A stretch of 64,000 bases of DNA from Bolinopsis microptera (lineage: Eukaryota > Ctenophora > Tentaculata > Lobata > Bolinopsidae). Location of the stretch: positions 3,389,096 to 3,453,095 of the forward strand of contig NC_087080.1 in the NCBI RefSeq assembly GCF_026151205.1, read 5' to 3'. The translations under genes and the position numbers were made by a program. Shown piece by piece: positions 8,728 through 58,471 of this stretch (its first letter is position 1; each line of letters begins with the position of its first letter). Below the pieces are notes generated by a model. The model worked only from the letters and a program-made list of their open reading frames with translations, did no database searches and was not told where the DNA came from.

Positions 8728-8745
8728 CTTTATTTTAAGGTTGAA

Positions 8746-10914
8746 ATGAATTTTGTTGCGGTTCACTCTGCACACAAGAAAGTATCGACGAACGGGGGTC
8801 CGAAACGCAATTTAGAGTTGGTGAGTGCCACTCCCCAGTTTAACTCAAAAGTGCGACTTAGATATCCATCTGACGAAAATGATGAAAACGATGATCATTT
8901 TACCAAGCATATGATAAGTTTTGCTAAAAAAGCTGAACATGATCATGAAGTTTTGAATAAACTTCTAGGTTCTAAGCCTAATTTGCAGCTTTTGATCGAG
9001 GGGAAGGGAGTTAGATTGGATTTTTTAAAGGACCCAATAGGATGGATAAACAATTACAATGCTCACACGAAAAGGTTCTCTGAGGATTCCCACTATCTAG
9101 GATATGTGGTGGGCTTGCTGGAGATAATCGTCAATAGTTCTCCATACGGAGAAGACAGAAATAACATCTACTCCCCCATACTCCTGCTCCAGAAGATGGT
9201 CTCAGTGAAGGCCCTGAAAGCGCGTAGAGATCCCATGAGGACTGCACTGAAACTGCAATATCACCTTCTAGAATACGCTCAGATGGAGAACGATAAAAAC
9301 TGTCTTTACGACAGGAAAATGGAAATGCTGGAGCAAATACCCAGGGACTTTGCTATAAAGCTCATCGAAGTCTGTGTAACACCCCTAGAGGTTTCCAAAC
9401 TGATGAGCTTAAACGACGAAACCATGTTCATTGATGTGTTGAAATCAAAGAACAAGGGACTCGTTGCTTCTAAAATGTACCAGAAAGTTGTCTGGCAAAG
9501 ATTCTGGAGGTCAGAAGTTTGGTCAGAAAAAACAGGAGGAAAATTCACCAAGACATTTAACGGCTTAGGAAGAGCGATGGAGTTTTTCTTTTGGAACATT
9601 TTTTATCTGCCACTAGTTCTCTTCTCAAAATTCTCCAGCTGGGCAGAAAAAAGAATAAAAACAGTGGAAATTGTTTTCTTTTCTCCCTTCAGTTCCTACC
9701 TAGCAGATATACTCAACTACACGATCCTCTTCGGTCTGTTGCTAACCGTTATCGTTACCACAATCCCTGACCCTAAACCAGTGCACCTTCTTATCTTCCA
9801 GCTGCAATCAGGAAACATTACAGCTTCTAACAGCTCCCATTTCAAAGTGGAAGATGATGGAAGTATCCTGGTGAAACTGCCGTCCCCATCCACACCCGGG
9901 TCCGAGTGGTGCTTGTGGGTATGCATTGTTGCCAGGATCCTCACAGAGTGGTACCAAGCATATCATAAAAAGGGTACCATGGCTAAATCCAAGCTGAAAC
10001 AATACTTTAACAGTTTCTCAAACCTGAACGATATAGTTTTGACATTACTGCTCCTAACGGGGATGATCTGCAAGCTTCAAGCATCCATCTCTTCTAAAGT
10101 ATCTGGTCTTTATCATCGTATTGACCACGACCGGATGGTTGCACGAGGGTTGATGCTTACGATTTACTTCTACTGCACTGCAGCTGTGGTTTCCTTGGTT
10201 CACCTCCTGCAGTTCTCCACAATCCATGTTCCTGGTCTTGGGCCCTTGCTTCGAGCCATAAGGGAAATGTTTGCGGAAATCTCACGAGTCATGTTCCTAT
10301 TTGGGTTCTTTTTGATCGGATTCACAGTTCCGATGCTAAGCATCTCGTCTTGTTACCGGATAGTTAATGAGATTGACGGAAGTGATGATAAAGATGGTTT
10401 CTTCTCTTTTCAATCTTTCAGCAGCACAGTAATCTCCCTTGTATGGAACTTGTTTGGAGGCTTATACAATATCCGGAAAGAGAACCTCTACAACTCTCTA
10501 GATAGCGCCATGTCCGTATGTGTGGGCTTTCTCCTCGTTATTTACGAGGTTCTGCTGGGGATAATGTGCATGAACCTGCTCATTGCTATCATGTGTGGTG
10601 CTTACTCCAGAGTAAACGAGGGCAAGTTCGCAAGCTGGAGGTACTCTCAGTTTGAGTCCATCATGGAGTATAATTCCGTCACCAACGTGGAGGGGCACGG
10701 CATGCCCTTCCTGTTTCCATTCAACATTCCGTATATTGTTTTCAATCTTATCACTAAACCCTGCAAGAATCCATTGCTGCTTAGGAACAAAACCCTGAAG
10801 AAGGGAAAGGATAACCTGTTCGCGAGATATCTCTGTCAAACCAGACACATAGACTTTGATGACGAGAAAAGTATGGGAACGGATGATCTTATGACACATA
10901 TGGCGGGCCATTAA
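8746..10914 (+). CDS. TRPC-like cation channel, single coding exon, 722 aa
   Basis: Six-transmembrane channel subunit expected in the plasma membrane and passing cations, as TRPC channels do. Residues 193-260 resemble the TRPC linker (DFAIKLIEVC, then LEVSKLM). SPFSSYL at 313-319 leads into S1 (about 320-340). S2 is about 388-402, S3 428-446, S4 468-490. The S4-S5 linker contains LGPLLRAIREMF (498-509), very like the conserved TRPC LGP segment. S5 is about 510-533, the pore helix 553-568, a selectivity-like WNLFGG at 567-572, and S6 588-617 ending NLLIAIMCGAY. A TRP-helix-like SWRYSQF follows (630-636). At 722 residues it is shorter than most TRPCs. The N-terminal 190 residues show no clear ankyrin repeats, which TRPCs normally carry, so the N terminus is divergent or lost. 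The first ATG follows a splice acceptor. No stop or frameshift interrupts it. Subfamily is less certain than superfamily. Confidence 0.88.
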   Translation: MNFVAVHSAHKKVSTNGGPKRNLELVSATPQFNSKVRLRYPSDENDENDDHFTKHMISFAKKAEHDHEVLNKLLGSKPNLQLLIEGKGVRLDFLKDPIGWINNYNAHTKRFSEDSHYLGYVVGLLEIIVNSSPYGEDRNNIYSPILLLQKMVSVKALKARRDPMRTALKLQYHLLEYAQMENDKNCLYDRKMEMLEQIPRDFAIKLIEVCVTPLEVSKLMSLNDETMFIDVLKSKNKGLVASKMYQKVVWQRFWRSEVWSEKTGGKFTKTFNGLGRAMEFFFWNIFYLPLVLFSKFSSWAEKRIKTVEIVFFSPFSSYLADILNYTILFGLLLTVIVTTIPDPKPVHLLIFQLQSGNITASNSSHFKVEDDGSILVKLPSPSTPGSEWCLWVCIVARILTEWYQAYHKKGTMAKSKLKQYFNSFSNLNDIVLTLLLLTGMICKLQASISSKVSGLYHRIDHDRMVARGLMLTIYFYCTAAVVSLVHLLQFSTIHVPGLGPLLRAIREMFAEISRVMFLFGFFLIGFTVPMLSISSCYRIVNEIDGSDDKDGFFSFQSFSSTVISLVWNLFGGLYNIRKENLYNSLDSAMSVCVGFLLVIYEVLLGIMCMNLLIAIMCGAYSRVNEGKFASWRYSQFESIMEYNSVTNVEGHGMPFLFPFNIPYIVFNLITKPCKNPLLLRNKTLKKGKDNLFARYLCQTRHIDFDDEKSMGTDDLMTHMAGH

Positions 10915-14077: not shown

Positions 14078-14263
14078 CTTGTAGGAATAACACTAGCGTA
14101 ATATTTTCCAAACCACCTTTGTATTCTCTATCATAAGATCTTCTCCTAAAATCTTGTGATTGAGAACAGCAGTTTAAGTTTTTTTAAACGTAAAATCTTA
14201 TCATTATGATAAAGTAAAGTATTTTTTGTACGAATATGATAACGATCGTCACTATCACAGATT
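14078..14263. other. 5' flank of the PLAC8 gene with acceptor CACTATCACAG
   Basis: A splice-acceptor-like CACTATCACAG ends at 14260, three nucleotides before the PLAC8 start codon, so an intron or spliced-leader junction may lie immediately upstream. A short AT-rich stretch precedes it. Confidence 0.4.
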
Positions 14264-14656
14264 ATGAGTCAGCAAGTAATACTTGTTACTTCCGAGGGTG
14301 GAAATCAATGGAACAACGAATGGAGTCACGGCCTATTTGGATGTTTTGACGACTGTGGAGAGTGTCTGCTCGCTTGGTGTTGTCCGTGTATCACCTTCGG
14401 TTTGAATGCCCGAGATTCTGGGTGCTGCTGTGATGGTTGTTGTGGAGCGTTCTGTGGCTGCCTATTCTTCTTCTGTCCATTTTCGCTGTGTGCCTGGTGT
14501 TGTTGTATTAGACCGAATATTCGGAGGAACCACAAGATCCCAACTAATTGCTGTGCAGATTGGCTGGCGATAATGTGTTGTCCGTGTTGTGCTCTCATCC
14601 AAGAACGACAACAGTGCAAGACATCTACAACTCAAGTTGTAGAAGTAGTGGTGTAA
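14264..14656 (+). CDS. PLAC8 (cornifelin-like) cysteine-rich protein, 130 aa, possibly truncated
   Basis: Matches the PLAC8 pattern: NEWSHGLFGCFDDCGECLLA (residues 18-37), CCPCITFGLNAR (39-50), a Cys-dense hydrophobic core (54-82), then NCCADWLAIMCCPCCALIQE (95-114). PLAC8 proteins are small membrane- or cytoplasm-associated proteins whose members include plant and animal growth or metal-handling factors; the role here is not known. The reading frame closes at TAA 14654-14656, but the sequence after the stop continues in the same frame as a Gln/Tyr/Pro-rich tail (see next entry). The domain itself is complete, so a short functional protein remains possible. Confidence 0.8.
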   Translation: MSQQVILVTSEGGNQWNNEWSHGLFGCFDDCGECLLAWCCPCITFGLNARDSGCCCDGCCGAFCGCLFFFCPFSLCAWCCCIRPNIRRNHKIPTNCCADWLAIMCCPCCALIQERQQCKTSTTQVVEVVV

Positions 14657-15306: not shown

Positions 15307-15438
15307 GGGGGGGGGGGGGGGTGCCAATGGCATAAATGGCATAATGGAGAATTGGCCAAACAAAATTTCCATTTATGCCATGAAATTTCTATGCCATTTG
15401 ATGAATTTTATGCCATTTTTCTCCATTCTATGCCATTC
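15307..15438. mobile_element. G/C-run palindromic element, copy C
   Basis: Fifteen G followed by GTGCCAATGGCATAA open the element; it ends near TTCTATGCCATTCG without a C run. The interior from GGCCAAACAAAATTTCC onward is nearly identical to copy D at 18.1 kb, so C and D form one subfamily, and A and B the other. Confidence 0.7.
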
Positions 15439-16179: not shown

Positions 16180-17914
16180 TCAAAAGTAGGACCCTAGAGC
16201 GGAGTCAAATCGCCAGGGTAGGAATCTAGAGCGGAACCCCCTCACCGGAACCATACTATAAGGACCCTAGAGTGGAGTCAAATCGCCAGGATAGGACTCT
16301 AGAGCGGAACTCCCTTACCGAAACCATACTATGAGGACTCTAGAGCGGTACCCACATGTAAATTTTGGAGCGATTAGAAATTTGAGATCAGACTGTAGAG
16401 TGGACTTGGTCGGAAGATTGAAATCAGATTAGATACAACTCGTGATTGATTATTATAATAGTGAGATTAGAATAATTCATGGAGTTGTTGAAGCAGAAAA
16501 TTGTCCTAGATTATTTATATTATACATCATATCATATTGTAATTTTTAGATACGTTAGACAATTGTTCGGTATAAACTTCTTCCATTTGACTGAAATATC
16601 CTGATGCTACTCTAAAATGCAAAAAGATTCTTTGATAAAGAGGTATAATTATGAACTGGTCGATGTGATTTCGCTAAGCGAAATACCGACCAAGTACGTG
16701 CACTCAAGCAGATCATTTAGTGTGACACTTTAGCACCTACTAAGGGTATCTCATGTTCAGTCTAGTGACAGGGTATGTTCCAGATCAGATCCCATCGCAT
16801 AGCGGTTCTTGTTAGTGATTTCGATAGTGCAGTATAAATGTCACAGAGAATTTAGTTTAGTATATCACATTCGATTCCTACTCCTCTTTACAACTATCTA
16901 CAATATGCTGAGTAACAGTTATTACTTAACTCTTCCTGAGAAGGCCGTTTTCAGACTTCATCCGGGGACGAACAGCTGAGATGGGTACGGGAGAACGGAC
17001 TGAAGAAGGACTACAACGAAGGAATTAACGACCCCCTTACTAATTCCTGGACTTCAGGTCCTGTTCAAGTGTGGATACGTAGACTTATGCACTATGCAGC
17101 TTGCCTTTCTCCCAGTGGACGATGTTCTCCCTTCTTTCATGGAGCTCCTAGATCTTATACCCTCCCACCTTGGCCTCGACGACTTCCTTAACTACTTCAT
17201 GACGAATTGGGTACAGGGAGTTTCCACCGCTCGTAGCACCAAACCTGCCCGCTTTCCTCCGCAATCCTGGAACCTCGTCGACCGGACTACCTGCAACTTC
17301 AACTACGCAGAGGCCTTTAACAGAAAGTTTGCAGCAATGTTGGGACACTCTTACCCAACTATCTGGACCTTTCTTCAAGCTGTCTATATAGAACAGTCCA
17401 CTACAGATGAGATGATGCTCAAGGAGAGTTACGGGGATGCTCCTCCTGCAAAACGAGCCCGTCAGCGTACCAAGGACAGCCGACTGGCACATTTAGTAAA
17501 AGTCTACTACGATCATGACATTGTCTCACTCTCCCACCTTGACATGTTGAGGAACGTGATGGTCGAGGAACTGAGTGAACTATTTCAAGATATTTGATTC
17601 GCAGTATTAATGTATAATAAGTTGTATCAATTCTATCATCATTATGTGACGACTATTATTAATCATTGATTAAAAAACATAGCTCAATCTTCAAAACTAA
17701 CTTTACTCTCAAATTTCTAACCGCTCTAAAATTTGCATGTGGGTACCGCTCTAGAGTCTTCATAGTATGGGTCCGGTAAGGGAGTTCCGCTCTAGAATCC
17801 TACCTTGGCGATTTGACTCCGCTCTAGGGTCCTCATAGTATGGGTCCGTTAAGGGGGTTCCGCTCTAGAGTCCTACCCTGGCGATTCGACTCCGCTCTAG
17901 GGTCCTACTTTCGA
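16180..17914. mobile_element. MULE-like DNA transposon with long inverted repeats
   Basis: The left arm (16180-16387) and right arm (17707-17914) are inverted copies about 208 bp long, ending in TC(A/G)AAAGTAGG, with an estimated 85-90% identity by eye. Each arm contains a 73-bp tandem unit, about 2.2 copies, built around CTCTAGAGCGG. Inside is a decayed transposase (16982-17597). Long TIRs with this transposase type fit the Mutator-like superfamily. A 9-bp target duplication was looked for and not found, so the true ends may be a few bases off. Length is 1.7 kb, short for an autonomous copy. Confidence 0.8.
16982..17597 (+). pseudogene. broken MULE-type transposase, C-terminal part
   Basis: The last 167 codons (from 17094) carry the end of a MULE transposase: LAFLPVDDVLPSF (residues 3-15), YFMTNWVQG (34-42), the substrate-like RFPPQSWNLVD (53-63), NYAEAFNRKF (70-79), HSYPTIWTFLQAVYIEQ (85-101). 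Upstream, in a frame shifted by one, 16982-17100 reads WVRENGLKKDYNEGINDP and VWIRRLMHYAA, matching the segment expected just before. The two frames meet near 17090-17100, so a frameshift separates them. The catalytic DDE region is not seen. Non-functional. Confidence 0.75.
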
Positions 17915-23178: not shown

Positions 23179-23493
23179 ATGGCGCATAGTTTGGTTACCA
23201 TGGCGCATAGTTTGGTTACCATGGCGCATAGTTTGGCTACCATGGCGCATAGTTTGGTTACCATGGCGCATAGTTTGGTTACCATGGCGCATAGTTTGGT
23301 TACCATGGCGCATAGTTTGGTTACCATGGCGCATAGTTTGGTTACCATGGCGCATAGTTTGGTTACCATGGCGCATAGTTTGGTTACCATGGCGCATAGT
23401 TTGGTTACCATGGCGCATAGTTTGGTTACCATGGCGCATAGTTTGGTTACCATGGCGCATAGTTTGGTTACCATGGCGCATAGTTTGGTTACC
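23179..23493 (+). repeat. 21-bp minisatellite, exactly 15 copies
   Basis: Fifteen head-to-tail 21-bp units (ATGGCGCATAG then TTTGGTTACC) fill 315 bp with one visible difference (copy 3, T to C). Because 21 is divisible by 3 and the unit has no stop in several frames, both strands show long open frames: MAHSLVT repeated on the plus strand, and GNQTMRH or MVTKLCA on the minus. These are best read as artefacts of the repeat. The near-perfect homogeneity implies recent expansion. Confidence 0.92.
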
Positions 23494-23851
23494 ATTTCCC
23501 TCCCCCTTCAGTTCCCGATATTTCTTTTGGACTACCAAACCCCCTCCTAGGTAAAAGACTCTTAGTTTTCAAGACTTGTGGTCTGCTATGGGGTCTGCTA
23601 TCGATTATTTTACTTCTTCAAAGTTAGTCCAATTTTCATTACCTGGACTTCAGTGGATTCTTCTTTTGGTAATGTGCCTATTTCAAAGAGTTTTTGTAAG
23701 GTATTTACCTTCAAGTGGACTCAGTTACAATCAGTTATTTTCAGTTACAATCAGTTATTCTAGCATTTGCAACAATTTTAATTGCTCTCTTATCAGTTGT
23801 TTTATCTTTACATCGACACGCCAGCTACTCAGCTTGCCTTTGCTTTGTACA

Positions 23852-35105: not shown

Positions 35106-36077
35106 ATACTCCTCCAGGAGGCAAACATCGGGCTTGTTCCTTGGTCTTACTAAGTCACACCTCCATTAGTCCTTTCGATTTCAATTAGACCAGTCTACCG
35201 AGATAGCAGGAGGATAGCTATCACAAATTTACCGTTCATATTAAGATATAGTTATACCCATTGCAACTGCTTTTGAAAATTACAGATAAATTTAGGCCGA
35301 GTTTGAGATAAACCTCTTTAATTTCTCCAGCTAGGCGCCGACCCGTGTAATATAGGAGCTGGATTTTAGCGTTTAGCAGTTTCATCGTATTTCACTAAAA
35401 TTATTTAATAATAATCGTACAATTAATGCGTCGTATTTAAGACACGGATGGATACCAGGCATATGCGACTCTGATATCCCAAGATCAAGAGGCTGTTGCA
35501 GAATGGTTGCCGTTACTTTACCAGCGGATTATACTAAAAATAAGGAAAATTGTTCTGAGTTTAAACCTGGTGAACGGCGGTATCGTCTTTTCCACTGCTG
35601 CTCCTCTTTAATGTCTGGTCTCGGCAACGTCGCTTCTGACTTCTACCATGTACCACTCCACGTACGAAATACTAAATTTTGACACATTTCTGATTTTCCC
35701 AAAACATCACAATCTGAGGGTCACCTCATAATTGGTCTTCTTGCAATCGAAAGCTTAGATCTTTAGTCCAATCAAATATTTATTGTTGACATAAAACCGA
35801 TCTTAAATGCCCGTTGGGGTAAAACAATTCGTTTTTCTGATCGTTTGACCATTATCCTCAACTCCGTCTCTACGTCTTTTATTATGATGTTTTCTGTTTA
35901 CTGAAATACTGGAAACCAGGTCTTACACAATTAATATCAAATAAAACCAGATATTCTAAAGAATCAATTATTATAGGCTTAAAACAGGTCAGGACCAATT
36001 ATCATCCGTAGTTAAGATGAGATAGTAATAAAACAAGTTGCAGTTATAGTTTCTGTATAGCTGCTTCAATGCCCCCC
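35106..36077. other. non-coding stretch
   Basis: No gene recognised. Confidence 0.4.
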
Positions 36078-36913
36078 GAGGGAGCTAGGGGTATGCGTAT
36101 CGAGGGAGCTAGGGGTATGCGTGTCGAGGGAGCTAGAGGTATGCGTGTCGAGGGAGCTAGGGGTATGCGTATCGAGGGAGCTAGGGGTATGCGTATCGAG
36201 GGAGCTAGGGGTATGCGTATCGAGGGAGCTAGGGGTATGCGTGTCGAGGGAGCTAGGGGTATGTGTGTCGAGGGAGCTAGGGGTATGCGTGTCGAGGGAC
36301 TTAGGGGTATGCGTGTCGAGGGATCTAGGGGTATGCGTGTCGAGGGAGATAGGGGTATGCGTGTCGAGGGAGCTAGGGATATGCGTGTGTAGGGAGCTAG
36401 GGGTATGCGTGTGTAGTGACTTAGTGAGCTAGGGGTATGCGTGTGTAGGGAGCTAGGGGTATGCGTGTCGAGGGAGCTAGGGGTATGCGTGTCGAGGGAG
36501 CTAGGGGTATGCGTATCGAGGGAGCTAGGGGTATACTTATCGAGGGAGCTAGGGGTATGCGTATCGAGGGAGCTAGGGGTATACGTATCGAGGGAGCTAG
36601 GGGTATGCGTGTGTAGGGAGCTAGGGGTATACGTATCGAGGGAGCTAGGGGTATGCGTGTCGAGGGAGCTAGGGGTATACGTATCGAGGGAGCTAGGGGT
36701 ATGCGTGTCGAGGGAGCTAAGGGTATGCGTGTCGAGGGAGCTAGGGGTATGCGTGTCGAGGGAGCTAGGGGTATGCGTGACGAGGGAGCTAGGATATGCG
36801 TGTCGAGGGAGCTAGAGGTATGCGTGTCGAGGGAGCTAGGGGTATGCGTGTCGCGGGAGCTAGGGGTATGCGTGTGTAGGGAGCTAGGGGTATATGCGTG
36901 TCGAGGGAGCTTT
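36078..36913 (+). repeat. 24-bp minisatellite, about 35 copies
   Basis: Unit CGAGGGAGCTAGGGG then TATGCGTGT, with common variants GTGTAG for GTGTCG and GTATCG for GTGTCG. Because the unit is 24 bp, two plus-strand frames stay open as 8-residue repeats (RGMRVEGA and GVCVSREL), interrupted where GTGTAG creates stops. No protein support; a satellite artefact is the simplest reading. Variants are mixed along the array with no clear blocks. Confidence 0.92.
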
Positions 36914-47512: not shown

Positions 47513-48248
47513 GGTAGTTCGAGTGGGTACCGCTGTCGGTAGGGCGCCGGGCAGCGGCATCTGGTGCCCGACCAGCACCCTACCGGCACCAGACCGGCAC
47601 CCAACCGGCACCCTACTGGCAACCTACTGGCACTCTACTGGCACCCTACCGGAACCCGACCGGCACCCGACCGGCACCCTACTGGCACCCTACCGGCACC
47701 CTACTGGCACCCTACTGGCACCCTACCGGCACTCTACCGGCACCCTACAGGCACTCTACTGGCACCCTACTGGCACCCTACTGGCACCCTACCGGCACCC
47801 TACTGGCACCCTAATGGCACCCTACCGGCACCCAACCGGCACCCTACTGGCACCCTACTGGCAACCTACTGGCACCCTACTGGCACCCGACCGGCACCCT
47901 ACTGGCACCCTACTGGCACCCTACCGGCACCCAACCGGCACCCTACTGGCAACCTACTGGCAACCTACTGGCACCCTACTGGCACCCGACCGGCACCCTA
48001 CTGGCACCCTACTGGCACCCTACCGGCACCCTACTGGCACCCTACTGGCACCCTACCGGCACCCTTCTGGCACCCTACTGGCACCCTACCGGCACCATAC
48101 TGGCACCCTACTAGCACCCTACCGGCACCCTACTGGCACCCTACCGGCACCCTAGACTGACACCCTACCGGCACCCTTCTGGCACCCTACCGGCACCCGA
48201 CCGGCGTCCGACCAGCGTCCTAACGACAGCGGTATCCGCTCGAACTAG
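47513..48248. mobile_element. inverted-repeat element with an 11-bp minisatellite core and 9-bp target duplication
   Basis: TTCAGTTTG at 47504-47512 and 48249-48257 brackets the element. The ends pair over about 29 bp: TAGTTCGAGTGGGTACCGCT from 47515 against AGCGGTATCCGCTCGAACTA ending 48247. Almost all of the interior is an 11-bp tandem array. A 9-bp duplication suits MULE-like non-autonomous elements, but no transposase is present, so the family is inferred only. Confidence 0.7.
47566..48212 (+). repeat. 11-bp minisatellite (GGCACCCTACY), about 58 copies
   Basis: Eleven-base units GGCACCCTACT or GGCACCCTACC run head to tail, with variants CAACC, CCCGAC and CCAAC for CCTAC. Since 3 x 11 = 33, open frames of 198-210 codons appear (PTGTLLAPYRH repeated), which are satellite artefacts. 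The array sits inside the inverted-repeat element 47513-48248. Confidence 0.92.
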
Positions 48249-48646: not shown

Positions 48647-49556
48647 GTAAGTCTTGTGATTAAGGTCAGTTTCATGACTTGATTTAGTGGAATTTGTCTG
48701 CTATCTTTTTGCCGAAGATAAAGCGATAGAATTGCTCAACGTTTGTATTTTCCTTAGAAGGAGTAAAATGTTAATACTTCGGCCGAGGCCGCGGGTTTGC
48801 GATTTTTCTAGCAACTATTCGTGCGCATTGTTGATATAATTAATTAATAATCAATAATAATTGTTATAATTAATAATTATTAATGTCGATAGTTGCTGGT
48901 TTATCCACACACCCTATCCTGAAATGTGCCAATTCAACCAGGAAAAAGTGCATAAAATGAGCATAAAAACAATTCTAGATTAAGAAATAATTATAAATTT
49001 TTGTCTGCGTCATAATTTCAGCTCACTTCAATCATTTCTAAATCTAGGAATCAATGATAGAATTAGTTCATCCAGTTGTGTGGTCGATTTCGGTTATTTG
49101 GTAGCGTTTTGCAAATTTAGTCGGTACGCCTTGACGAATGATTTTTATTTCGAATATGAAAGCTCAATATAAAAGTTTGCATGGAAATTTGCGTTTGTAC
49201 TCCAGTAATTTCAAGTTGCTCATTGTTCAAAGTACCCTAGCGTCTGAAAATTCTATCATTCAAAGTCATAAAAACAACAGTAGGCTGATTTGTCCCTAAT
49301 TTGATATAAGTAAGGAGAAAGGAACTTTCAGTATAGCCAGCTTCAATAGTTACTTTCTGTGGAAAGTTAGATATCTAATTATCTTTACTACAGCTAAGAT
49401 CTCCGTTATATAAAACATATACCAATATAAAAAGACTAACTTTAAAGTACCAAAGCCTGTTAGTGTTATCTAAGCAAATTAAAAACCAGCTGGCAACACA
49501 ACCTTATAACGGTGAGGAGCCGGTATGGTTGTGCGTACTGCGTGGTTAGAGCAACA
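48647..49556. other. putative intron or intergenic stretch
   Basis: AT-rich, with TTAATTAATAAT-type tracts near 48835-48885; no gene recognised. Confidence 0.4.
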
Positions 49557-50076
49557 GGTTGCTAAGCGGCTAACAGGTTGCTGAGCGGCTAACAGGTTCC
49601 TAAGCGGCTAACAGGTTGCTAAGTGGCTAACAGGTTGCTAAGCGGCTAACAGGTTGCTAAGCGGCTAACAGGTTGCTAAGCGACTAATAGGTTGCTAAGC
49701 GGCTAACAGGTTGCTAAGCGGCTAACAGGTTGCTAAGTGGCTAACAGGTTGCTAAGCGGCTAACAGGTTGCTAAGCGGCTAACAGGTTGCTAAGCGGCTA
49801 ACAGGTTGCTAAGCGGCTAACAGGTTGCTAAGCGGCTAACAGGTTGCTAAGTGGCTAACAGGTTGCTAAGCGGCTAACAGGTTGCTAAGCGGCTAACAGG
49901 TTGCTAAGCGGCTAACAGGTTGCTAAGTGGCTAACAGGTTGCTAAGCGGCTAACAGGTTGCTAAGCGGCTAACAGGTTGCTAAGCGGCTAACAGGTTGCT
50001 AAGTGGCTAACAGGTTGCTAAGCGGCTAACAGGTTGCTAAGCGACTAACAGGTTGCTAAGCGGCTAACAGGTTGCT
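49557..50076 (+). repeat. 19-bp minisatellite (GGTTGCTAAGCGGCTAACA), about 27 copies
   Basis: Homogeneous array, with scattered AGTGG for AGCGG and CGACT for CGGCT changes. The AGTGG variant recurs every four units in places, suggesting a higher-order repeat of about 76 bp. Weak inverted similarity between the flanks (CCGGTATGGTTG on the left, CAACCGGA on the right) may mark an enclosing element. Confidence 0.9.
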
Positions 50077-50869
50077 ACCGGCTACCGCTACAACCGGACT
50101 GTCTGGGAATTAAGTATGAAAATGTCTAAAACTGAGGTCAAGGAGTCCGCTCTTAGCTTGTGTGCGTCGAGCTTTCACCGCATTAAACGCAAATACGGCA
50201 AAATAGGGCAAAATGGCGTGAGCGTAGTGTTAAACGGTGGCGGCTGCTTCTCAGAGACTTATTTCCAATTTCAATGTGATTTGGAGTAATTCTCGAGGAG
50301 AAGTGAGGCTACCATATCAATTATAGATATATTCTTTTATATTGGCAGACGCACATCGCAATTGCTAATGCGAGTATTTTTCTGAAGTTTTGTTCCGTTT
50401 GATTTCGTCAGGAGGCAGGGGATTCTTTGGGAGATCATGGCTTCAAAGCTGCGAATTCTTCTTTATGTTATACACATTCGAGTAAGCCGCCCAGTTTGAG
50501 AATTAGGTCGGATTTTCTAGCCATTTCTAGACTATGATATTTTGAATTACAAACAGATGATTTTTTTAAATTAATGCTTTTAATTCATGAAATTGTGTTT
50601 AGATAATCGCGACACTAACCTAATCAAAATATTTGTTCTATAATTTTCACAAATTAGTGAGATTAGCTGGTTTGTACCAATTTGTCTTGGTTTAGAAAAT
50701 ATGTATCATTTGATAATATTTTTATATCCTCGATTTACAGTAATATATCACTGTACCGAACCATATGAATATGATAAGATAATATAATAATGATGATAAA
50801 ACTGAATAAAATTAGAAAATTAGTTTCCTGCAACGTGTTTCTGATAACTGACGATGATATTTTTTTCAG
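50077..50869. other. putative intron sequence
   Basis: Non-coding; ends in a polypyrimidine tract and acceptor TTTTTTTCAG at 50869. Confidence 0.4.
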
Positions 50870-52976: not shown

Positions 52977-53530
52977 GTGCTTCATAGAATCCTCTATAGG
53001 GTCGTCGAAGTTGCTGACCACCCGGACAGTGAGATCGCTGCCTTTATTCCACTCCAGTCCAGTAACGAGTTTCCATTTCGACGGCTGTATCCTGCCACTA
53101 GAGGCTCATCCGGGAATGATTTCAATTTCACAAACGTTGTAAGCATTTCTTTAAAGTGCAGGGGATCTTCGATAGTATGTATGTTTGGTGGGATTAAGTT
53201 CCGCAATCGAGGTCCAATTACTGCAAACGAATTATCGTAGAGCGTTTGGTTGCGCTGACTGCTAGATTTATTCAGAGTGGGAATAACTCCCACACCAAAG
53301 TAACTTGGATACTAATGGGGAGGCCGTGAGTCACGTTTAATTGACAGACAGCCATTAACAAATTAGCTCCCAGTAAACCAAACAAATCCCCGGTTCTCTT
53401 TCCGTGTCACAATAAATATGGCTTAAAGTTATCGTCAATCTCTAGAAACAACTCAATTGCTTACTTATGCTATTCAGTTTACTAAGGTATGTATTTTGGA
53501 ACCAGTTCCCCACTACTACCAGTCCCATTA
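52977..53530. other. possible decayed retroelement tail, minus strand
   Basis: The minus-strand frame 52994-53293 reads NSFAVIGPRLRNLIPPNIHT, which resembles the short segment NSF...GP.LWN.LP..I found after the reverse transcriptase in many non-LTR elements. It is short and isolated, so this is a suggestion only. Confidence 0.45.
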
Positions 53531-54217
53531 TTATCCATCTCTATTTGCTGTTGTGATGGAGTGAATTTGTAGAGAAAACTTTGACAGAATAAAGCGCCTG
53601 AAACTGGGAACAGTAAGGAAGTAAATGGCAAAATTTGCCATTATGTTGAGCATCGGGAGATACCACGCCACTCTGTTAAAATCAGCAGATATGAGCTCGG
53701 GATGGTGTTGACTTGATTGAAACTGAATATGGTACATTAGAAAAGCAGAATACGGTTGAAGTAATGACCACTGTGGGAATACCTCGCATACGTAATTCAC
53801 CAGGTGACCGTTTGGCAGCGTTTGGTAGCGTTTCTTCCATGGTCGGGATGTTTGTTAGGATCACAATAACGCAAGGGAGTAGAGTATTCATTACAGCATG
53901 ATCAAACGAGTAAAACCAATAGCCTACTTTCTCTTTGTATGTAATCGGATTATTTTGGCAATCGTAGAAGTTCATGTCTTTGACAAGGTTCAAGTTATCA
54001 CCCTCCAACACCCAAAATGTTAACGGCACCCAGATCCACACCAGCCATAATGCTGCACAAAAGCCGTGTGCCACTTCCTTTTTTCAGTATTTAAGACTTC
54101 AGAGGAAATTGCAAGATCGTTTATAATTTAGTGGCCGACAATGCACTCACAAGATGCAAACTAACACTAAAATATAATACGTCAAATAATATCTCAGTTC
54201 AGTCGCTGTACCGGATG

Positions 54218-56872
54218 GACTGAGCACCCACTGATCCCACCCTGCTATCATATTCACACTAGTCTCCGGTAGCACCCACTGATCCCACCCTACTATCATA
54301 TTCACACTAGTCTCCGGTAGCACCCACTGATCCCACCCTGCTATCATATTCACACTAGACTCCGGTAGCACCCACTGATCCCACCCTGCTATCATATTCA
54401 CACTAGTCTCCGGTAGCACACACTGATCCCACCCTGCTATCATATTCACACTAGTCTCCGGTAGCACCCACTGATCCCACCCTGCTATCATATTCACACT
54501 AGTCTCCGGTAGCACCCACTGATCCCACCCTGCTATCATATTCAAAGTCTCCGGTAGCACCCACTGATCCCACCCTGCTATCATATTCACACTAGTCTCC
54601 GGTAGTACCCACTGATTCCACACTGCTATCATATTCACAGTCTCCGGTAGCACCCACTGATCCCACCCTGCTATCATATTCACAGTCTCCGGTAGCACCC
54701 ACTGATCCCACCCTACTATCATATTCACAGTCTCCGGTAGCACCCACTGATCCCACCCTGCTATCATATTCACAGTCTCCGGTAGCACCCACTGATCCCA
54801 CCCTGCTATCATATTCACACTAGTCTCCGGTAGCACCCACTGATCCCACCCTGCTATCATATTCACAGTCTCCGGTAGCACCCACTGATTCCACCCTGCT
54901 ATCATATTCACACTAGTCTCCGGTAGCACCCACCGATTCCACCCTGCCATTATATTCAAAGTCTCCGGTAGCACCCACTGATCCCACCCTGCTATCATAT
55001 TCACAGTCTCCGGTAGCACCCACTGATCCCACCCTGCTATCATATTCACACTAGTCTCCGGTAGCACCCACTGATCCCACCCTGCTATCATATTCACACT
55101 AGACTCCGGTAGCACCCACTGATCCCACCCTGCTATCATATTCACACTAGTCTCCGGTAGCACACACTGATCCCACCCTGCTATCATATTCACACTAGTC
55201 TCCGGTAGCACCCACTGATCCCACCCTGCTATCATATTCACAGTCTCCGGTAGCACCCACTGATCCCACCCTGCTTTCATATTCAAAGTCTCCGGTAACA
55301 CCCACTGATCCCACCCTGCTATCATATTCACACTAGTCTCCGGTAGTACCCACTGATTCCACCCTGCTATCATATTCACAGTCTCCGGTAGCACCCACTG
55401 ATCCCACCCTGCTATCATATTCACAGTCTCCGGTAGCACCCACTGATCCCACCCTGCTATCATATTCACAGTCTCCGGTAGCACCCACTGATCCCACCCT
55501 GCTATCATATTCACAGTCTCCGGTAGCACCCACTGATCCCACCCTGCTATCATATTCACAGTCTCCGGTAGCACCCACTGATCCCACCCTGCTATCATAT
55601 TCACACTAGTCTCCGGTAGCACCCACTGATCCCACCCTGCTATCATATTCACAGTCTCCGGTAGCACCCACTGATTCCACCCTGCTATCATATTCACACT
55701 AGTCTCCGGTAGCACCCACTGATCCCACCCTGCTATCATATTTACAGTCTCCGGTAGCACCCACTGATCCCACCCTGCCATCATATTCAAAGTCTTCGGT
55801 AGCACCCACTGATCCCACCCTGCTATCATATTCACACTAGTCTCCGGTAGCACCCACAAATCCCACCCTGCTATCATATTCACAGTCTCCGGTAGCACCC
55901 ACTGATCCCACCCAGCTATCATATTCACAGTCTCCGGTAGCACCCACTGATTTCACCCTGCTATCATGATCATATTCACACTAGTCTCCGGTAGCACCCT
56001 CTGATCCCACCCTGCTATCATATTCACAGTCTCCGGTAGCACCCACTGATCCCACCCTGCTATCATATTCACAGTCTCCGGTAGCACCCACTGATCCCAC
56101 CCTGCTATCATATTCACAGTAGTCTCCGGTAGCACCCACTGATTCCACCCTGCCATCATATTCAAAGTCTCCGGTAGCACCCACTGATCCCACCCTGTTA
56201 TCATATTCACACTAGTCTCCGGTAGCACCCACTGATTCCACCCTGCCATCATATTCAAAGTCTCCGGTAGCACCCACTGATCCCACCCTGCTATCATATT
56301 CACAGTCTCCGGTAGCACCCACTGATCCCACCCTGCCATCATATTCACAGTCTCCGGTAGCACCCACTGATCCCACCCTGCTATCATATTCACAGTCTCC
56401 GGTAGCACCCACTGATCCCACCCTGCTATCATATTCACAGTCTCCGGTAGCACCCACTGATTCCACCCTGCTACCATATTCACACTAGTCTCCGGTAGCA
56501 CCCACTGATCCCACCCTGCTATCATATTCACAGTCTCCGGTAGCACCCACTGATCCCACCCTGCTTTCATATTCACACTAGTCTCCGGTAGCACCCACTG
56601 ATTCCACCCTGCCATCATATTCAAAGTCTCCGGTAGCACCCACTGATCCCACCCTGCTATCATATTCACAGTCTCCGGTAGCACCCACTGATCCCACCCT
56701 GCTATCATATCCACAGTCTCCGGTAGCACCCACTGATCCCACCCTGCTATCATATTCACAGTCTCCGGTAGCACCCACTGATCCCACCCTGCTATCATAT
56801 TCACAGTCTCCAGTAGCACCCACTGATCCCAACCTGCTATCATATTCACAGTCTCCGGTAGCACCCAGGCCC
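54218..56872 (-). repeat. 45/48-bp minisatellite derived from GPCR loop-1 coding sequence, about 57 copies
   Basis: The unit reads VLPETVNMIAGWDQW (45 bp), or with an extra Ser codon VLPETSVNMIAGWDQW (48 bp); both lengths keep frame. The minus-strand frame is open for 598 codons (54147-55943) and 303 codons (55953-56864), broken once at about 55950 where a Trp codon TGG reads TGA. The GPCR has TGGGTGCT on both outer sides of the array, so a single ancestral unit would have lain between 8-bp direct repeats. Two further frames of the array are also open (GSVGATGDCEYDSRV), so openness alone proves little. Confidence 0.9.
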
Positions 56873-56990
56873 CAGCTCAAAGACAACGCCAAGTCATTGA
56901 CAGCCATGTGTTGGATAACCGCGATTATGAGCTTGTTAAGTCTGAAGGAATTGTCAGTCATGGTGGCAATCAGAATGATAGTACATATCT

Positions 56991-57155
56991 CCAAGGAGCA
57001 GGGACAAAAGGAAATCGGGGCATGTGCAGGATCGCGATTTTTCCCATTATTTGCGACAAATTTTATGTATAGTTTAATGTATAGTCTGTTAAAAATCGCG
57101 GTATCGCGAATTTTGGCCAAAATAATCGCGATCTCCTTTTGTCCCTGCCAAGGAG
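56991..57155. mobile_element. 149-bp hAT-like MITE inside GPCR TM1, with 8-bp target duplication
   Basis: CCAAGGAG at 56991-56998 and 57148-57155 brackets an element starting CAGGGACAAAAGGAAATCG (56999) and ending CGCGATCTCCTTTTGTCCCTG (57147 is the last base), which are inverted copies. The interior has further ATCGCGAT/AATCGCG palindromes. An 8-bp duplication and CAG ends indicate hAT. It splits the first transmembrane segment of the GPCR, so it is another reason the gene is dead. Confidence 0.85.
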
Positions 57156-57232
57156 AGTTGAGAGAACGACTATAACATTGTATCCGATCAGGAAAGAAGT
57201 TTCCACACCACAATTGGTCGCATGTTTGCGTT

Positions 57233-57821
57233 TGTGTCAGAAGCATTGGTAGGTTCCATGTCCCTAAAACAACGAATTGGCGAGTAAAAAAGTAAAAAAA
57301 GAAGGTTTTTCAGACGCAATATAATGTAGTTCTTTTAATAAAAGCAAACATTTTATTGGTTATATTAAAGTCAACAGCACCGAATAATGTCATGATTTCA
57401 AAGCTAAGAACTTAAATAATTAATACTTTAGTTATTTAGTCATTACGGCATCGTCTGGTTTCTCCGCTAATCTCTAGACACTCCCTAATGATTTGCGTCA
57501 GTGCGGGAAACAAATGAGCTGGGATATTTTTAATTAAATATTCAGAACTTAATTACACCAGCAGGCCCACACCCAGAAAAAAAAACCCAGAAAGACGGCA
57601 GATTGGCAGATAATCTGCGAGGATATTTGAAACTTTCTGAATGTGGGACAGCAAGGCAGTCGTAGCTGTGGTAGGTTATATATAGTGGCATTTACCTAAT
57701 ATTTTAGTGGTATTGCTACAAAATAGCAACTTGAACTACGCTTGACATCAATCTATTATTATAGAGTTATATAACAGCGTATTGTCTACTGTTCTGTGGG
57801 GCAGCTGGAACTTATAAACCA
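57233..57821. other. upstream flank of the GPCR relic
   Basis: No further receptor sequence, promoter element or exon recognised. Confidence 0.4.
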
Positions 57822-58471
57822 CATACTCCAGATGCAACACTCTTCTTTACTCATTCCCCTATCTCTCTACTCTACCGGCTGCCTCTGACATACTCCAGAT
57901 GCAACACTGTTCTTTACTTCTTCCCCTATATCTACTCTACTGGCTGCCTCTGACATACTCCAGATGCAACACTCTTCTTTACTCCTTCCCCTATCTCTAC
58001 TCTACCGGCTGCCTCTGACATACTCCAGATGCAACACTCTTCTTTACTCCTTCCCCTATCTCTACTCTACTGGCTGCCTCTGACATACTCCAGATGCAAC
58101 ACTCTTCTTTACTCCTTCCCCTATCTCTACTCTACTGGCTGCCTCTGAAATACTCCAGATGCAACACTGTTCTTTACTCCTTCCCCTACCTCTACTCTAC
58201 CAGCTGCCTCTGACATACTCCAGATGCAACACTGTTCTTTACTTCTTCTCCTATATCTACTCTACTGGCTGCCTCTGACATACTCCAGATGCAACACTGT
58301 TCTTTACTTCTTCTCCTATATCTACTCTACCGGCTGCCTCTGACATACTCCAGATGCAACACTGTTCTTTACTTCTTCTCCTATATCTACTCTACTGGCT
58401 GCCTCTGACATACTCCAGATGCAACACTGTTCTTTACTTCTTCCCCTATATCTACTCTACCGGCTGCCTCT
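57822..58471 (+). repeat. 65-bp minisatellite, 10 copies
   Basis: Units begin CATACTCCAGATGCAACACT at 57822, 57889, 57954 and so on to 58406. The first unit is 67 bp, with two extra bases. Variants CTCTTC/CTGTTC and ACCGGC/ACTGGC alternate, suggesting unit-pair duplication. Non-coding. Confidence 0.9.

Follow-up and report, generated by a model that had tools for sequence, protein, structure and literature searches.

Two models of minisatellite birth bear on the locus reported here. As described in PMC3389668, the model of Haber and Louis involves duplication between direct repeats of 5–10 bp, and that of Taylor and Breden involves slipped mispairing that leaves the last unit incomplete. A tandem repeat within receptor coding sequence is exemplified by the exon 3 VNTR of DRD4, which, in the account of PMC3164202, has a 48-bp unit, occurs in 2 to 11 copies and lies in intracellular loop 3. 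A search of open-access papers found no published minisatellite in the coding sequence of a GPCR or chemoreceptor pseudogene, which is not proof that none has been published, and no relevant-looking work on ctenophore minisatellites was found in the open-access literature. DRD4 is a class A GPCR, and its 48-bp repeat is, to our knowledge, the nearest GPCR parallel. Here we describe a ctenophore array that is probably the product of an ordinary minisatellite birth, seeded by a direct repeat in a GPCR gene, with most of its visible growth taking place after the gene had died.

The window (the whole 64,000-nucleotide stretch of DNA that was analysed) contains head-to-tail copies of one unit, and the term minisatellite is used here for a tandem array with a unit of roughly 10–100 bp. 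TRF called the array at 54223–56867 with a period of 45 and 57.2 copies. Cutting of the reverse strand between 54231 and 56867 yielded 57 complete units (35 of 45 bp, 21 of 48 bp and one of 54 bp) with the consensus TGGGTGCTACCGGAGACTGTGAATATGATAGCAGGGTGGGATCAG (WVLPETVNMIAGWDQ), confirming the 57-copy minisatellite of the initial annotation for the one assembly from which the copy number is known. The range of 53531–57232 assigned to it there corresponds approximately to the whole pseudogene, the array itself being confined to 54223–56867. Unit variants had been described as differing by 3 bp, which is correct for the 48-bp units, whose extra codon is AGT in 20 cases and ACT in one, and incorrect for one unit that is 9 bp longer.

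The array amounts to 879 codons (35 × 15 + 21 × 16 + 18) placed between TM2 and TM3. With the extra codons left out, 49 substitutions relative to the consensus are found in 57 × 45 bases (1.9%), and the mean pairwise difference between units is 3.6%. Open frames of 601 and 307 residues are separated by a single nonsense change, as had been noticed: TGG to TGA in the 54-bp unit at 56000. There is just one real stop in the array because the double change of CAG in unit 55901 gives TTG, which encodes Leu, and not the stop TAG.

A 92-residue query taken from the pseudogene downstream of the array returned, besides itself, one match in the genome (C9:5940030-5940287, 39% identical). The match lies in the open frame of a 348-aa gene, L002, which reads ...NDLAISFVWLLPVTVNMISMAGWDYWILNPSSLASVLRYG... 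and is located on the same contig, 2.5 Mb away. L002 is the closest intact paralogue found; outside the window, a TM2–TM3 query likewise matched it best. The segment corresponding to the repeat unit is present there in a single copy at the TM2 end and extracellular loop 1 (WLLPVTVNMISMAGWDYWIL in L002 vs. WVLPETVNMIAGWDQWVL in the array). Alignment of the unit plus WVL to L002 residues 73–92 gave a score of 77, compared with 47 for the best of 5000 shuffles of the unit, and the pseudogene with its array reduced to one unit aligned with L002 over 290 residues at 51% identity. In an alignment of six family members, no variation is seen at the loop-1 Trp (W90), at L92 or at the TM2 Pro (P76).

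The single homologous segment and its alignment score support the proposal that the unit originated from the TM2 end and extracellular loop 1, and an intact relative, in this case a paralogue, carries one copy at the place predicted. Copies of the unit apart from GPCR sequence, which would have spoken against this origin, were sought genome-wide; all 25 matches to the unit fell inside the array and none outside it, in a search that skips very common words and is therefore not proof. Near L002, a 20-bp tandem array is found just upstream of the start codon (L002 2255–2428), and an AGG-rich array lies further upstream (L002 2574–3258).

The genome contains a large family of rhodopsin-type receptors, with 150 scored matches among 326 candidates (the 150 include L002, and the array locus twice), many of them consisting of one open frame of 320–400 codons. 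We read 68 family loci, comprising L002, seven of ten excised loci (L006–L012; of the other three, L003 and L005 are the window and L004 repeats L002) and 60 from rows 11 to 74 of the matches listed, from which four rows, one with an internal stop, were left out. No tandem copy of the segment was present in any of these 68 loci, 56 of which were checked by a pattern covering the TM2 end and the loop-1 Trp and 12 by eye. The two sites that bound the segment are 13 codons apart in 55 of the 56 pattern-matched members and 17 codons apart in L002; the array unit has 15 codons.

Four of the six family members tested exceed the cut-off of the 7tm_1 profile (Pfam PF00001), and the partial L010 has a match to Srx alone, under the cut-off. 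L002 matched no Pfam family and, by sequence, no PDB entry at E 1, so its class was settled via the family members and the fold; four pieces of the pseudogene likewise gave no family at E 1 in a Pfam scan. An AlphaFold model of L002, built from a six-row alignment (mean pLDDT 73.6), shows seven long helices and a helix-8-like one. Foldseek searches with this model gave a best E of 2.2e-7, with TM-scores by query of 0.56–0.68 over the 50 PDB matches listed, all of which we take, from their titles, to be class A receptors. Judged by the 7tm_1 matches of its family and the modelled seven-helix fold, the host of the array is a rhodopsin-type (class A) GPCR pseudogene.

Alignment to L002 shows how the receptor gene is broken. 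The end of TM1 together with TM2 (IILIATMTDNSFRLNKLIIAVIQHMAVNDLALSLS) is found at 56875–56979, and the remainder of loop 1, followed by TM3 and the rest of the receptor to the C-terminal tail, at 53511–54222, both on the reverse strand. Frameshift steps occur near 54174, 54095, 53722 and 53550, the last within the weakly matched tail, and stops at 54121 and 54086; these positions come from one dynamic-programming run and may move by a few bases. At the TM2 edge of the array, seven bases are extra with respect to L002 (56868–56874, reverse strand, placement arbitrary within a few bases). An upstream piece with TM1-like residues (NCGVETSFLIGYNVIVVLSTLL; 57148–57215, reverse strand), recognized in a three-frame print by its resemblance to the family by eye, is cut off by a 149-bp MITE. 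Compared with an intact relative, the frameshift steps, two stops, MITE and 7-bp insertion show that the host gene is a pseudogene, in agreement with the suggestion that the GPCR is broken outside the array. The frame of the array runs on into TM3 (WVLSPSGTATELRYYLTYY), whereas TM2 (NDLALSLSW) is in another frame because of the seven extra bases; the array is thus in frame with the receptor, as the initial annotation had it, on the TM3 side and not on the TM2 side.

The MITE (56999–57147) has inverted-repeat ends CAGGGACAAAAGGA and is flanked by an 8-bp target-site duplication CCAAGGAG (56991–56998 and 57148–57155), with TM1-like residues recognizable by eye on both sides. It is probably hAT-like, a reading made because of the 8-bp target duplication only. 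A first look at the genome gave 1002 candidates for this element; those scored make up 41 listed rows, namely the window copy, 39 full-length or nearly full-length copies and one partial copy. The window copy differs at 7 of 149 sites from a consensus of 20 copies, which were among the best matches to it. Four of the seven differences are found in no other copy of the 20, two in one copy each and one in eight. This divergence is higher than the depth of the array (1.9%), with P values of 0.033 for all 7 differences, 0.08 for 6 and 0.33 for 4, the counts of 4 to 6 being those without differences shared with other copies. As an age clock for the array, the MITE is suggestive at most.

The 8-bp sequence TGGGTGCT opens the first unit (56860–56867) and is found again past the last unit as a partial copy (54223–54230, reverse strand), confirming the direct repeat reported at both outer edges. 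A short direct repeat at both edges and an incomplete last unit, as in direct-repeat birth, are therefore both present. TGGGTGCT has 52 exact matches within 54223–56867 and a single one in the rest of the window; the number expected over the full window is 1.5. The far copy is either a partial 58th copy or the native loop-1 W-V-L; it need not be a remnant of the array, because W90 and L92 are invariant and 32 of 56 family members have WVL as their loop-1 triplet. Four of the 56 begin the TM2 site with Trp. Counted in register from the first base, the two sites are identical over 8 bp at the array locus, and in the 56 family members over 6 bp in one, 5 bp in one and at most 3 bp in 54. In L002, which is a paralogue and not the ancestor, the two sites read W-L-L and W-I-L, with three identical bases from the first. 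The 8-bp repeat could be partly a product of the array itself.

We propose that 45 bp of a class A GPCR gene, present once and covering the TM2 end and extracellular loop 1, bore TGGGTGCT at both ends, one copy encoding the Trp-Val-Leu that precedes the TM2 proline and the other corresponding to Trp-x-Leu in loop 1. The first tandem duplication would have come about when these sites mispaired by strand slippage or underwent unequal exchange. Later growth and turnover would be due to more exchange, with one or more block duplications of several units among the events. Folding of one 90-base stretch of the array revealed no excess structure on either strand (z 0.49 and 1.23), and fold-back of a strand as the cause of instability was rejected on the basis of that stretch.

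The units carry 25 distinct base changes relative to their templates, comprising 5 synonymous changes, 19 amino acid changes and 1 stop; these are distinct variants and not proven independent events. At the observed transition bias, neutral expectation is 23% synonymous and 7% stop. The probability of 5 or fewer synonymous changes among 25 is 0.46 at an omega of 1, 0.19 at 0.7, 0.05 at 0.5, at most 0.015 at 0.4 or less and 0.002 at 0.3. Strong constraint on the translated unit is thus disfavoured, and the counts allow weak constraint, with an omega of about 0.7 (P 0.19). The frame had been described as held; with 5 of 25 changes synonymous against 23% under neutrality, no selection on it is visible, and the purifying selection expected of a DRD4-like coding VNTR was not found, an omega of about 0.7 being compatible with the counts. 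The repeat probably stays open because its unit is a multiple of three and because the array is young or has been kept uniform by turnover, rather than through selection for a repetitive protein.

Outside the array, about five frame-breaking changes (the four steps and the 7-base insertion, counted by hand) fall in 825 aligned bases. None is present in the 2637 bp of the array, where about 16 would be expected at the outside density (P 1e-7), and the contrast looks the same when the frameshift step in the tail is dropped. With selection disfavoured, the simplest reading of this contrast is that the units now present arose after the gene had decayed, or are uniform by turnover. From the lesion density and the neutral substitution pattern, we infer that most of the present array arose after gene decay, and on the order of the two events the evidence tends towards decay first. 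An array of greater age could, however, appear young through homogenisation.

In a different order of events, the array would have grown in frame within a working receptor as a coding-exon VNTR, giving a variable and very long loop 1, with the death of the gene coming later. In favour of this order, the unit length is divisible by three, the array shares the frame of TM3, and every length variant keeps to multiples of three, the last being weak support because there are only two length classes beyond 45 bp; the coding VNTR of DRD4 provides a precedent in a GPCR (PMC3164202). This order is nevertheless unlikely, given the 879 codons that the whole array would insert between TM2 and TM3, the substitutions without sign of purifying selection, and the lesions that are dense outside the array and nearly absent inside it, which suggest that decay came before the units now seen. 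A stage in which the array first grew from its direct-repeat seed in a still working ctenophore receptor, as a long and copy-variable extracellular loop 1, is distinctly improbable. If such a stage existed, the pairs of W-V-L in TM2 and W-x-L in loop 1 would make the TM2–loop 1 region a recurrent birthplace of coding repeats in the family.

Five variants occur in exactly two units each, and three of these rare variants appear a second time, in unchanged order, 16 units away (54327–55352, reverse strand; P 0.006 by simulation, in a lag test picked after seeing the data), which we take as a block duplication. Exact runs of sequence, 206 and 218 bases long, are also repeated, at lags of 744 and 786. 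A lag test of unit identity over the whole array was not significant (best lag 17, P 0.08). The order of the rare variants and the exact runs therefore point to growth that included multi-unit duplication or conversion, and not single-unit slippage alone. Long tandem arrays are, as a matter of general knowledge, often misassembled, and the array could be real with a copy number other than that assembled; it is very unlikely that this is so, as the rare variants are in internal order, all unit lengths are multiples of three and gross error is not indicated.

The open frames of 601 and 307 residues would also be consistent with a new repetitive protein, expressed and selected, although the neutral substitution pattern and the nonsense change make such a protein scarcely credible. 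Least credible of all is insertion into the gene of a satellite or mobile tandem repeat of unrelated origin. Tandem arrays are plentiful in the window (21 hand-picked from the TRF list, this one included, or about 11% of the window), but the unit shows homology to exactly the segment predicted for this place, and a genome search that skips very common words detected it nowhere else.

Many other minisatellites are present in the window, among them those at 36077–36911, 47575–48198, 49553–50077, 57821–58471 and 23179–23495, with units of 24, 11, 19, 65 and 21 bp, respectively. Repeats with a 73-bp unit at 16188–16348 and 17746–17906 are alike by eye and opposite in orientation, and 20-bp arrays at 15387 and 18167 have a common consensus; these 73-bp and 20-bp repeats may be parts of repeated elements. 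Elsewhere in the genome, two ionotropic glutamate receptor frames were compared with the PDB: L026 was closest, with visible differences, to ML032222a iGluR, a Mnemiopsis leidyi protein, and L025 to kainate receptors. Two of the eight open frames of the window that were scanned contain a Pfam domain, an ion transport domain (PF00520) at 8728–10911 and a PLAC8 domain (PF04749) at 14243–14653.

The array, as a probable direct-repeat-seeded minisatellite grown mostly in a dead gene, adds a case to a known process, and its traceable coding source and its copy number make it unusual. The single-copy source, the probable seed repeat and growth by blocks can each be identified, making this a traceable minisatellite birth. 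It also carries a caution that a long open repeat frame is not evidence of a protein, since the frame here is open without detectable selection. Relative to the Rhodopsin-family GPCRs (PF00001), the locus belongs with family members that exceed the profile cut-off and with a paralogue whose model matches class A structures; it differs in that the array copy is broken and L002 itself scores no Pfam family. The array resembles the births modelled by Haber and Louis and by Taylor and Breden, as described in PMC3389668, in that a short direct repeat bounds the unit, the terminal unit is incomplete, and slippage or unequal exchange would have acted. Unlike those models as described there, the source of the array is an identified coding segment, both of whose repeat sites have counterparts in the receptor family. 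With the DRD4 repeat, as described in PMC3164202, it shares an in-frame tandem repeat of similar unit length in a class A GPCR; the DRD4 repeat occupies intracellular loop 3 of a working receptor in 2 to 11 copies, whereas the array described here was built from the TM2 end and extracellular loop 1 and is present in 57 copies in a pseudogene.
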